NCBI GenBank assembly: GCA_938009745.1
Contig: CALLII010000150.1
Coordinates: 1 to 50,248, forward strand
Direction: 5' to 3'
DNA: 50,248 nucleotides
Origin: an uncultured Flavobacteriales bacterium
GTDB taxonomy: Bacteria; Bacteroidota; Bacteroidia; Flavobacteriales_D; CAJJDF01
The translations under genes and the position numbers were made by a program. How positions within the stretch are numbered: the first letter of the stretch is position 1; each line of letters starts with the position of its first letter. Of the stretch, positions 15,325 through 19,620 are shown piece by piece. Below the pieces are notes generated by a model that was given only the letters and a program-made list of their open reading frames with translations, searched no databases and had not been told where the DNA came from.

Positions 15325-15846
15325 ATGCTAAACAAAAGAGTAGAAGAAGCACTAAATTCACAATTAATAGTCGAAGCCTATTCGTCACATTATTATTTGG
15401 CAGTAGCATCTTGGGCAGAGGTAAACGGATTAGGAGGAACTTCGGAGTTTTTTTATGAGCAATCTGATGAAGAAAGAATGCACATGCTAAGGCTTGTAAA
15501 GTTCATTAACGAAAGAGGAGGTAAGGCAGTTATTCCTAGAATTGAAATGCCGCAAAACGACTTTAAATCATTAAGACAAGTATTCGAAGATTTTTTAAAA
15601 CACGAATTAGCAGTATCAGCTAAAGTAAATGAGGTGGTAGGAATTTGCCATGAAGAAAAAGATTTTCCAACAATGAACTTTATGCAATGGTATGTTTCCG
15701 AACAAATTGAAGAAGAAGCTGTAGTAAGAACAATCTTGGACCAGCTTAATTTAATAGGAGACGATAAAAGTGGATTGTACCACTTTGATAGAGATTTGAA
15801 AAACATCAAAACTCCACAGATTACAATTAATAACACAGCCAATTAA
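15325..15846 (+). CDS. ftnA: Non-heme bacterial ferritin
   Basis: Ferritin oxidises Fe(II) and stores iron as a mineral inside a 24-subunit shell. The 173-residue four-helix protein keeps the E. coli FtnA metal ligands at identical numbers: Glu17, Glu50 and His53 (site A), Glu94 and Glu130 with Gln127 (site B), and Glu49, Glu126 and Glu129 (site C). Motifs seen are EAYSSHYYL, DEERMHML and SEQIEEEAV. No heme-ligand Met marks it as bacterioferritin. The gene starts 93 bases from the divergent epimerase gene and lies 12 bases before the SPFH gene, so those two may be cotranscribed. Confidence 0.95.
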   Translation: MLNKRVEEALNSQLIVEAYSSHYYLAVASWAEVNGLGGTSEFFYEQSDEERMHMLRLVKFINERGGKAVIPRIEMPQNDFKSLRQVFEDFLKHELAVSAKVNEVVGICHEEKDFPTMNFMQWYVSEQIEEEAVVRTILDQLNLIGDDKSGLYHFDRDLKNIKTPQITINNTAN

Positions 15847-15858
15847 AAAACAAAAATT

Positions 15859-16815
15859 ATGATTTTATTAGCCGCATCAGCACCATCACCAGGAATGATT
15901 ATTCTTGTAGTATTAGCAGTTATTTTTCTTGTAATGTCGATTGTAATCGTCCCAGAAAAATCTGCGAAGGTGATACAAAGACTTGGAAAATTTAACAGAA
16001 TTGCTTTCTCTGGTTTAAGTTTTAAAATCCCAATTATTGATTCTGTAACAGGAACAGTAAACTTAAGAGTATTACAACTTGATGTACATGTAGAAACAAA
16101 AACAAAAGATAATGTATTTGTAAATATGCAGGCTTCAGTTCAATATAAAGTAATAAGAACCAAAACAAAAGAATCTTTTTACAGTCTAGATGATTCTGCA
16201 AGACAGATTTCTTCATTTATTTTTGATGTAATTCGTGCAGAAGTTCCAAAGCTCGAGTTAGATGATGTATTCTCGAGAAAAGATGATATTGCAAATGCAG
16301 TAAACAGTAGTCTTTCTACTTCTATGGATGATTATGGTTTTGAGATTATTAAAACATTAATTACGGATATTGACCCTGATAAGAATGTAAAAGAATCTAT
16401 GAACAGAATTAATGCAGCTAAAAGAGATAAAGAAGCAGCATTAGAGGAAGCAGAAGCAACCAAAATTACAATTGTAAAGGAAGCAGAAGCAGATGCAGAA
16501 AGTAAGAGATTGCAAGGGGAGGGAGTTGCCGCACAAAGAATTGCAATTGTGAAAGGTTTTAAAGAATCTATTGAAGATTTTAAAGATTCATTGGATGAAA
16601 TTAACTCAACTGAGGTAATGCAGTTTGTTCTACTTACTCAATACTTCGATACATTGAATAGTATAGGAACCAAAGAAGGTAACAACACAATTTTAGTTCC
16701 TCATTCTCCAGGAGGCATGAAAGACTTTCAGCAACAAATAATGGAAGGTACTTTTGTAGGTCAAAAGTTAACTGAACCGGCAAAGGCAAAACCTAGGGCT
16801 AAAAAAGCAGAATAA
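15859..16815 (+). CDS. SPFH/band 7 family membrane protein (stomatin-like)
   Basis: The 318-residue protein has an N-terminal membrane helix (about residues 10-28) followed by VPEKSAKVIQRLGKF, the start of the SPFH (prohibitin-homology) domain, through about residue 185. The region 185-235 is rich in Ala, Glu and Lys (AAKRDKEAALEEAEATK, EAEADAESKRLQGEG) and forms the usual long coiled coil. The tail is basic. Bacterial SPFH proteins (QmcA/stomatin type) form membrane-bound oligomers or cages, often with proteases. No NfeD-type partner gene adjoins. It follows ftnA by 12 bases and precedes the cyclase gene by 45. Confidence 0.9.
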   Translation: MILLAASAPSPGMIILVVLAVIFLVMSIVIVPEKSAKVIQRLGKFNRIAFSGLSFKIPIIDSVTGTVNLRVLQLDVHVETKTKDNVFVNMQASVQYKVIRTKTKESFYSLDDSARQISSFIFDVIRAEVPKLELDDVFSRKDDIANAVNSSLSTSMDDYGFEIIKTLITDIDPDKNVKESMNRINAAKRDKEAALEEAEATKITIVKEAEADAESKRLQGEGVAAQRIAIVKGFKESIEDFKDSLDEINSTEVMQFVLLTQYFDTLNSIGTKEGNNTILVPHSPGGMKDFQQQIMEGTFVGQKLTEPAKAKPRAKKAE

Positions 16816-16860: not shown

Positions 16861-18411
16861 ATGATTCCATTTTCATTCATAGCATCTTTATCTATGACAG
16901 GAGAATGGAATTTTTTTGTTCCAATATTAGCCCAAAGTAACTTCTTTGGATTATTGTTTTGGCAACTTATTTCCGTGGTTTTAGCCATAGGAGTTGGAGT
17001 TATTTTTCTATTTGGAAAAAAACAAAGGAACAACATGCGGGAGTTTATGGAGAGGAGAACAGAAACAATTTTAATACAAAAATCAAAAATTGAAGAACAG
17101 AACTCTTTATTAGAAATAGAACATAAAAAATCGGACGAATTACTTCAGGATATATTCCCCAAAAAAATCATTAAAATACTCAAGAATAAAGGAACTTTAA
17201 CTCCTGACTATTACAAAGAGGCTACAATTTTATTTGCTGATGTAGTGTCTTTTTCTAAAATAACTCCAAATATTGGTGCCGAAGAATTGGTGGATAAATT
17301 AACCATTTATTTTCGTGCTTTTGATAAAATCATAACTGAAAATAAATTGATTTTAATAAAAACAATAGGGGATTGTTATTTTGCTGTTGGAGGTGTTCCA
17401 AAAAAATCATTTAAGAGCCCTATACTAAGTGTTTTATCAGCATTACAGATGCAGGAGGCAGTTTCTATGATTAATCATATTGATGAATCTGGTTGGAAGA
17501 TAAGAATTGGATTAAACACGGGAGAGATAGTAGCAGGAGTTCTTGATACTAAGCGACCAATGTTTGACGTGTGGGGAAGCTCAGTAAATGTGGCAAGTAG
17601 AGTTCAAGAGGCAGGTTTTCCTGGAAAAGTAAATATATCTGAGGCAACTTACCTTAAAATATACCCTTATTTTGATTGTGAAGAACGAGGAGAGATTAAA
17701 ACAAAGAATGTAGGCAACATACCTATGTATTTTGTGAATAGAATTAAACCAGAATTATCTGCTAATGCAGAAGGAACAGAGCCAAATAAAATATTTTGGC
17801 AATACGCTAATAATCTTAAAAGCATAAAGCAAGATTATGTTCGAATGACTAGAGATGTGATTAAATTATTAAAAGATAAGTTACCTGAAGGTATCTTTTA
17901 TCACACAGAAAACCATGCTTTAAACATAATGAATGCAGTAGAGTTTATTGGTTTTGGCGAAGAAATATATAACGAAGATATTTTACTACTGAAAACAGCA
18001 GCATTGTTTCATGATGTTGGATTTATTGAACAATACCATGCTAATGAGATAATTGGCGCAAAATATGCCAAAGAAATGATGCCTAACTACGGCTTTAATA
18101 TTGATCAAATTAATAAAGTTGAAGCTTTAATTTTAGCAACCGACATTCATCATGAACCAAAAAATTTACTTGAGGAAATAATAAGAGATGCCGATTTAGA
18201 TTACCTTGGACGAGGAGACTTCAAAGACATTAGTGAAAAACTTAAGAAGGAGTATTTAATTAATGGTATAGTTAGCTCAGAGAAAGAGTTTCACGCCAAG
18301 CAAGTTAAATTTTTGAAAACACATACGTTTTTTACTGATACAGCAAAAACTACACGAATTGAAAAGAAAAAAGAGAATATTAAAATAGCTGAAGAACTAT
18401 ATAATTCTTAA
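16861..18411 (+). CDS. Class III adenylyl cyclase fused to an HD phosphohydrolase domain
   Basis: The 516-residue protein has one N-terminal transmembrane helix (about 30-51), a coiled-coil linker (55-95), a class III cyclase domain (about 115-295) and an HD domain (about 330-500). The cyclase has metal Asp127 (FADVVSF) and Asp171, the adenine-selecting pair Lys167 (KTIGD) and Asp236 (FDVW), and transition-state Asn243 and Arg247 (NVASR), so it should be active and make cAMP from ATP. The HD part has His348, His352, His384-Asp385 (LFHDVGF), His430-His431 and the DADLDYLG motif, so it may hydrolyse a phosphoester. The substrate is unknown. The 3' end overlaps the convergent SpoIIE gene by 15 bases. 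Confidence 0.9.
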   Translation: MIPFSFIASLSMTGEWNFFVPILAQSNFFGLLFWQLISVVLAIGVGVIFLFGKKQRNNMREFMERRTETILIQKSKIEEQNSLLEIEHKKSDELLQDIFPKKIIKILKNKGTLTPDYYKEATILFADVVSFSKITPNIGAEELVDKLTIYFRAFDKIITENKLILIKTIGDCYFAVGGVPKKSFKSPILSVLSALQMQEAVSMINHIDESGWKIRIGLNTGEIVAGVLDTKRPMFDVWGSSVNVASRVQEAGFPGKVNISEATYLKIYPYFDCEERGEIKTKNVGNIPMYFVNRIKPELSANAEGTEPNKIFWQYANNLKSIKQDYVRMTRDVIKLLKDKLPEGIFYHTENHALNIMNAVEFIGFGEEIYNEDILLLKTAALFHDVGFIEQYHANEIIGAKYAKEMMPNYGFNIDQINKVEALILATDIHHEPKNLLEEIIRDADLDYLGRGDFKDISEKLKKEYLINGIVSSEKEFHAKQVKFLKTHTFFTDTAKTTRIEKKKENIKIAEELYNS

Positions 18412-19620
18412 GCTCAATAGCGCAGTATCGTCAGGAAATTCGTTATCACCTCTGAATTTATTTACGTCACGAAATAGCGCCTTATTCATCTCATTCATAT
18501 TAAGATAACTATTTGCAACAATACTTTTTGATAATCTTTCGGATTCGAATTGTTCTTCGTTTTCGTTTTCAACCTCAACCATTCCATCAGTATAGCAAAC
18601 AATTATTGTATTCGATTCAATTTCAATAATTTTACTCTCAAGAGAAGGAAGTTCCTCAAATATACCAAGCGGAGTGCAACCTGTTTGTAATTCCTGAATT
18701 TTTCCTTTATGAAAAAGGATAGGGAAATTATGACCGGCATTTACATACTTTAGCTTACGATTTGTTTCGTTATAATATCCTATGAAAAAAGTAATAAATT
18801 TTTCTCCTTTAGCAGCATTTATAACACTTGTATTTAACTCAGACACAAGTTCTTTTAGTGTTAAATTCTCATGGTTATACTTAACATTTGCTCGCAGTGT
18901 GGCTTGAAAGTTTGACATAAGCATTGCAGCTGAAGTACCTTTTCCTGAAACATCTGCAATACAGAAGATATACTCATTTTTATTAATACGAATAAAGTCG
19001 TAGTAATCTCCACTAACCATGTTTTTAGCAATATAGGTACCTGCTATATCAATTAAATGATTGGAAGGTAAGTTGGCAGGAAGAAGTAATTTCTGCATTT
19101 CTGCAGCAATTTTCATGTCTTTTTCTTCTAGTTTTTTATTTATTAACTCTTTAGCAAGAGTTTTAGTCTCAATAGCAACAGAAACAACATTTGCAAGAGT
19201 TTGTACAAATCCAAGATGGGTTTCAATAAACGGCATCATTTCATCCTCTTCAATTCCTCCAAGAAGCAAATAAGAAAGGGCTTTTTCTTTATGAAAAACG
19301 GGCATGATTATATTGAATTGCTCAAAAACATGCTTTTCATTTTTATCAATAATAAGTGTCCCGTCAATTTTTAGGAGCTCTTTAATTTTTAAATCATTAC
19401 AATGGTTTTTAACCCCATAGTTTAGTATACATTTCCACGAATCTTTCTTATTTACAAAAGCTAACTTTTTAATTCCAATATAGTTTTGCATTACATTTTC
19501 GAACTGAACAATTAGCTCAGCTACCTTGTAGTTTTTGTTTACTGCATTGGTAATTTCAAGTAAAGCGTTTAGCTTTTGCCTCTCAATCAATAGTTTATCT
19601 TTGTTTTCTAATAATGCCAT
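18397..19620 (-). CDS. GAF-like sensor plus SpoIIE/PP2C serine phosphatase
   Basis: The 407-residue protein has an N-terminal helix, a GAF-like domain (about 20-160), a short coiled coil with EMQKLLLP and a C-terminal PP2C-type SpoIIE domain (about 190-405). The phosphatase motifs are MVSGDYYDF and CIADVSGKGTSAAM for metal binding, NAGHN, CYTDGMVE and the final DDTALL metal Asp pair. Such RsbU-like enzymes dephosphorylate anti-anti-sigma proteins in partner-switching pathways or other signal proteins. No STAS or anti-sigma kinase gene is adjacent. It follows fadE by 44 bases on the same strand; a weak hairpin (TTAAGA/TCTTAA) in between may separate it from the fad operon. Its 3' end overlaps the cyclase gene. 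Confidence 0.9.
   Translation of the reverse strand: MALLENKDKLLIERQKLNALLEITNAVNKNYKVAELIVQFENVMQNYIGIKKLAFVNKKDSWKCILNYGVKNHCNDLKIKELLKIDGTLIIDKNEKHVFEQFNIIMPVFHKEKALSYLLLGGIEEDEMMPFIETHLGFVQTLANVVSVAIETKTLAKELINKKLEEKDMKIAAEMQKLLLPANLPSNHLIDIAGTYIAKNMVSGDYYDFIRINKNEYIFCIADVSGKGTSAAMLMSNFQATLRANVKYNHENLTLKELVSELNTSVINAAKGEKFITFFIGYYNETNRKLKYVNAGHNFPILFHKGKIQELQTGCTPLGIFEELPSLESKIIEIESNTIIVCYTDGMVEVENENEEQFESERLSKSIVANSYLNMNEMNKALFRDVNKFRGDNEFPDDTALLSLRII

Follow-up and report, generated by a model that had tools for sequence, protein, structure and literature searches.

A class III adenylyl cyclase and an HD domain are joined in one membrane protein of 516 aa, encoded at positions 16861–18411 (+) of the window, the whole stretch of 50,248 nucleotides from an uncultured Flavobacteriales bacterium that was analysed. 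Judging from its residues, the modelled fold of its HD domain and the steady company that this domain's family keeps with class III cyclases in Bacteroidota, the protein is probably a membrane-anchored bifunctional adenylyl cyclase/cAMP phosphodiesterase, which would set the cAMP level from both sides. Each of the two parts is of a known kind; their combination is common in Bacteroidota and, as an enzyme system, undescribed in the open literature searched.

Apart from a single table row, no described cyclase-HD enzyme was found in the open-licence literature, in which an older description could be missed, and no assay of the cyclase-associated HD family was apparent there. The row in question concerns two genes with HSW locus tags, which we take to be those of Hymenobacter. 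It lists a cyclase and an HD gene as neighbours (HSW_3800/HSW_3799; Table 2, 2016, PMC4886424) and is the one exception to the statement of an earlier note that cyclases with such HD domains fit no described pathway, which otherwise agrees with the open literature.

Layout of the fusion protein and its cyclase

The gene starts with ATG and consists of a single unbroken frame; the minus strand of the same interval, read in register, contains many stops. A short N-terminus is followed by a membrane helix, a long signalling helix reaching to about residue 98, the cyclase and the HD domain. The single transmembrane helix and the coiled-coil/signalling helix occupy 16942–17154 (+): from sequence, a hydrophobic helix at residues ~28–52 is the sole membrane segment of the protein, the predicted model contains a helix at residues 29–98, and in relatives Reg_prop and Y_Y_Y domains precede the same segment. 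The cyclase catalytic domain (17209–17739, +; residues 117–293) was recognised as PF00211 (Guanylate_cyc) with 145.8 bits against a cut-off of 21.9 (1.4e-42), and in a six-frame search with 2.3e-43. The HD domain (17809–18408, +; residues 317–516) matches PF01966 (HD) at residues 356–445 with 27.8 bits against a cut-off of 22 (3.3e-6), and the profile of a Bacteroidota cyclase-associated HD family covers residues 317–516 (1.2e-77); the structural model and Foldseek matches to class I phosphodiesterases (PDEs) agree with this assignment. The reading frame, the Pfam matches and the membrane helix thus bear out the earlier description of a class III cyclase joined to an HD domain in one membrane protein.

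A check by position located the adenine-selecting set Lys167/Asp236 and the transition-state pair Asn243/Arg247 where the earlier note had placed them, and the metal residues are Asp127 and Asp171. With a score above the PF00211 cut-off and a complete catalytic residue set, the protein is a predicted class III adenylyl cyclase, and it was the only class III cyclase found in the source genome, which is ~90% complete. The His/Asp set of the HD domain, previously called intact, was likewise present (His348, His352, His384-Asp385 and Asp443), and the catalytic residues of both domains are conserved, with few exceptions, in 43 fused relatives. Class III adenylyl cyclases (Rv1625c/Cya type; soluble and receptor forms) have in common with the fusion the domain, its fold and catalytic residues, and a membrane anchor with signalling helix; the fusion differs from them by its added C-terminal HD domain, its single membrane helix and relatives that carry a sensor propeller.

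The HD domain between class I phosphodiesterases and YpgQ-type hydrolases

The H...HD...D metal ligands, the all-helical fold of the model and the PF01966 score place the domain in the HD superfamily. Among 169 HD family members there is little or no variation at His348, His352, His384, Asp385, Glu396, Asp443, Asp445 and Glu464. The class I PDE signature is H(X)3H(X)25-35D/E, and two such motifs are spoken of (PMC4222275); the HD domain carries it once, as His348-X3-His352-X32-Asp385, the X32 spacing being kept in 143 of the 169 members. An identity as an HD-GYP c-di-GMP phosphodiesterase was rejected, since the fusion protein has no GYP motif and PF13487 was not reported for its HD domain.

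The domain stays below the cut-off of Pfam PDEase_I (PF00233; 10.9 bits against 24.8, E 0.38), and 13 out of 40 HD family members showed weak matches to that model. Weak matches of the HD profile were also obtained with PDE5, PDE9, PDE8, PDE7 and PDE10, spanning the H-X3-H...HD stretch. The AlphaFold2 model of the HD domain was confident (pLDDT 96.3, pTM 0.90), and Foldseek returned for it, in this order, 2pq7 (an uncharacterised HD hydrolase), PDE5, YpgQ and many PDE4/PDE10/PDE2 entries. Human PDE5, PDE4, PDE10 and PDE2 were among the nearest solved structures, with YpgQ in the same range; the matches to class I PDEs had modest E-values of 1e-3 to 1e-2 (TM ~0.65 by query length, 0.42–0.50 by target length), and their number is inflated by the wealth of PDE entries in the PDB. 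Class I PDEs (PF00233; PDE4, PDE5, PDE10) and the HD domain have the H-X3-H-Xn-HD-D site and, judging from the model, an all-helical HD fold in common, besides the Foldseek matches and the weak profile similarity; the HD domain is different in having ~200 residues, not 320, in scoring below the Pfam cut-off and in its activity being putative. On this sequence and model evidence it resembles a class I PDE in the testable traits, yet falls outside PF00233 by formal membership.

It should be added that, by sequence, the solved structures closest to the HD profile were 2pq7, 3djb, 3b57, yedJ and YpgQ, i.e. YpgQ/YedJ-type hydrolases, which are like the HD domain in size and fold as well. YpgQ is a nucleotide pyrophosphohydrolase, and an HD domain of this type, acting as a pyrophosphohydrolase or nucleotidase, might remove by-products, tune ATP/dNTP or act on (p)ppGpp, so that its link to the cyclase would be metabolic and not signal-erasing. 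Fusions of distant family members to polyphosphate kinase speak for such a role. We nevertheless hold it to be distinctly unlikely, as class I PDEs were level with YpgQ in the fold search, the family co-occurs and forms operons with cyclases, and its fusions include a cNMP-binding domain. In comparison with the YpgQ/YedJ type, moreover, the family has conserved Glu396, Asp445 and Glu464, a DADLDYLGR block and the tie to class III cyclases.

Relatives, genome context and gene neighbourhood

The cyclase-HD fusion is real and old. Searching for the domain pair in other genomes, as the earlier note had proposed, revealed it in three congeneric genomes (63–67% identity) and in ~100 further loci of other Bacteroidota, and because of this recurrence neither chance nor misassembly explains it; an assembly artefact was ruled out by the identical fusion and gene order in the congeners. 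Some 30 genomes carried the fusion when 60 relatives were searched. At least 548 HD relatives came out of a profile scan of named genomes; the 80 top-scoring ones were mostly Bacteroidota fusions, with a few labelled Chlorobi.

Most orthologues are longer (~1250–1340 aa) and bear a propeller (Reg_prop) of ~800 residues together with Y_Y_Y ahead of the membrane helix; a second group has a receiver domain in front, and others have neither propeller nor receiver. The HD tree, whose supports are modest in places, groups the window genus as sister with members of the same family that have the long sensor. Short forms occupy at least two other places in it, which argues for more than one loss of the propeller. 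From these sequences, the N-terminal helix segment in the window genus is best understood as the remnant left after loss of a periplasmic sensor propeller.

Members of this HD domain's family are found in the company of class III cyclases, either fused to them, as the next gene downstream, or simply in the same genome. In Chryseobacterium (e.g. C. formosus, L136), Edaphocola, Dyadobacter (e.g. L154) and others, an HD gene immediately follows a class III cyclase gene on the same strand, at gaps of -61 to 148 bp. Among the free-standing HD genes of the profile-scan set, 9 out of 14 had a cyclase within 150 bp, which in 8 cases was immediately upstream on the same strand; in a set of more distant relatives only 3 of 30 had a cyclase within that distance. 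Co-occurrence was assessed in 70 Bacteroidia genomes for which at least 95% completeness was asked (the source genome has 90%), counting PF00211 proteins as cyclases and matches with E <= 1e-8 as HD family. All 39 cyclase-positive genomes had the HD family, and 27 of 31 cyclase-negative genomes lacked it (Fisher 1.7e-15; 1.4e-10 with one genome per family). A stricter HD cut of 170 bits, chosen afterwards, left none of the 31 cyclase-free genomes positive and removed 3 of the 39 cyclase genomes. The association persists at this cut when genomes with a fused copy are excluded (HD in 19/22 cyclase-positive versus 0/31 cyclase-negative genomes).

Further partners of the family were found by fusion. 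HD domains are joined to cNMP_binding and SpoIIE (L184, L185), occur with divergent cyclases at the opposite end of the protein (L186, L198), and are fused to a YitT/DUF2179 membrane protein (L165, 12686–14146; L166, 5153–6610), the gene in L166 being operonic with a class III cyclase. Distant members are fused ahead of a complete polyphosphate kinase (PPK1; L187, 4808–7498; L188, 3820–7266) or to a PrmC-like methyltransferase, and for this reason not every family member need act on cNMPs. A protein of 880 residues (L164, 6099–8741), with a TIR-like start, a TolB-like and TPR region and a C-terminal HD domain, is encoded convergently with a cyclase gene.

Fusions to PycTM, a Pycsar effector domain, are common in Bacteroidota (L052, L056, L057, L066, L067, L177–L179, L190, L192 and L196), and such an HD-PycTM protein may be a self-limiting effector. 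The known ligands of PycTM are cyclic pyrimidine nucleotides. These fusions raise another reading, in which cGMP, cUMP or cCMP, and not cAMP, is the substrate of the HD domain or the product of the cyclase, and the protein is a cNMP switch. The distribution of Gln481 appears to favour it, as this residue is almost invariant in cyclase-linked HD copies and mostly replaced in PycTM-fused ones; the difference, however, follows the tree and gains no support from independent pairs, and the idea that Gln481 corresponds to the glutamine with which class I PDEs recognise the base was rejected on the same grounds. Given also that the cyclase retains adenine-selecting Lys167/Asp236 and that the surroundings of the fusion contain no PycTM gene, we consider a switch for another cNMP unlikely. 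Membership of a Pycsar defence system was itself rejected: neither PycTM nor another Pycsar effector gene is found near the fusion, whose neighbours are Band 7, ferritin, SpoIIE and acyl-CoA dehydrogenase genes, and the match of the PycC profile to the cyclase domain is weak (1.3e-9, over the common cyclase fold). The resemblance to Pycsar (PycC cyclase, PycTM effector) consists in HD relatives fused to PycTM and in that weak score, and is offset by adenylyl-type residues and a vertically kept chromosomal locus without nearby PycTM.

Upstream of the fusion, on the same strand, are a ferritin gene (15325–15846, +; PF00210 1.8e-38), a conserved neighbour, and an SPFH/Band 7 gene (15859–16815, +; PF01145 6.3e-35) that ends 45 bp before it. 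A gene for a SpoIIE-type PP2C phosphatase (18397–19620, -; PF07228 4.6e-41) is convergent and overlaps the fusion by 15 bp. The Band 7 and SpoIIE positions are kept in the genus: of the three congeners (G001–G003), G002 and G003 have, one after another, thiolase, acyl-CoA dehydrogenase, SpoIIE phosphatase (convergent), cyclase-HD, Band 7 and ferritin, and in G001 the SpoIIE side is kept and the contig stops inside the cyclase-HD gene. The fusion protein and the SpoIIE phosphatase encoded convergently to it (16861–19620) are each ~60–68% identical across the genus, versus ~87–96% for flanking proteins, i.e. the two evolve unusually fast together. SpoIIE phosphatase recurs elsewhere: its gene immediately precedes the HD gene in L041, and the two domains are fused in L184/L185. 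A universal stress protein gene stands no more than 1.5 kb from 30/103 fused and 16/77 free-standing HD copies, and may be convergent, divergent or operonic with them (L083, L137, L152, L199, L200, L202, L203 and many fused loci). Rv1636 is a cAMP-binding example of such a protein (PMC11107214).

No conserved neighbour accompanies the fusion more often than ferritin, which in many distant relatives is the adjacent upstream gene, mostly ~0–100 bp away (L102, L107, L109, L140 and others); at the source locus the Band 7 gene stands between the two. Among 82 fused genes with upstream sequence, 24 had ferritin within 300 bp upstream on the same strand and 8 more had it farther upstream. HD sites commonly hold iron, and the frequent position of ferritin just ahead of the fusion would suit an HD domain that is non-catalytic and binds cAMP or a metal, e.g. 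iron, as an allosteric regulator of the cyclase. Such a regulator seems highly improbable, because hardly any of 169 members, free-standing ones included, has lost a metal ligand or the putative general acid, a degree of conservation beyond what binding would require.

Proposed mechanism and implications

Genome context, fold and motif together favour a cyclic-nucleotide phosphodiesterase among the alternatives raised in the earlier note, and leave an HD domain acting on a different signal molecule as the less favoured one. In the proposed bifunctional enzyme, the cyclase domain would work as a homodimer, kept together by the coiled coil, and make cAMP from ATP, as its intact residue set suggests. 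The HD domain would hydrolyse the cyclic nucleotide at its bimetal site, with His348 as the presumptive general acid, as in class I PDEs, and synthesis and hydrolysis may be under opposite control. In most relatives, the periplasmic propeller (Reg_prop/Y_Y_Y) or the receiver domain would set the balance between synthesis and breakdown; since the propeller is lost in the window genus, the enzyme there could, speculatively, be regulated through the membrane, by its neighbours or by the nucleotides that it handles. Ten cNMP-binding proteins scored above cut-off in the source genome, and its CRP-like regulators are the likely targets of cAMP.

The logic is that of GGDEF-EAL c-di-GMP enzymes, where one messenger is made and broken down in one sensor protein, although the folds differ and the messenger is probably a different one (cAMP). 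The parallel extends to members with one degenerate half: the cyclase half is degenerate, with its first metal motif altered, in a fused protein of L040 (5309–6691), and the HD half, with His384 changed to Tyr, in one of L131 (10498–12375).

An established route of cAMP breakdown in Bacteroidota was not found in the open literature. Class II PDEs were present in 3/70 Bacteroidia genomes and PF00233 in 0/70, so that a cAMP-degrading enzyme is otherwise wanting within a search that covered classes I and II, and a CpdA-type (class III) enzyme may be present; the PF00233 absence is weak, as its control also matched in no genome. We see an even chance that the small HD family is a cyclic-nucleotide phosphodiesterase class of the Bacteroidota's own, separate from the cAMP phosphodiesterases known in bacteria. 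Its members are fused to class III cyclases or share operons with them, and have further partners in universal stress proteins, ferritin, cNMP-binding/SpoIIE modules and the Pycsar effector domain. The fusion would then be the cAMP counterpart of GGDEF-EAL, and the PycTM-fused copies may erase cyclic pyrimidine nucleotides.

If this is true, the HD family could be the missing off switch of cAMP signalling in Bacteroidota, and the fusion offers a one-protein system in which the making and erasing of cAMP can be tested at once. Furthermore, the ferritin neighbour suggests iron storage as a physiological output, and the link to PycTM points to a possible source of a brake for cyclic-nucleotide immunity.
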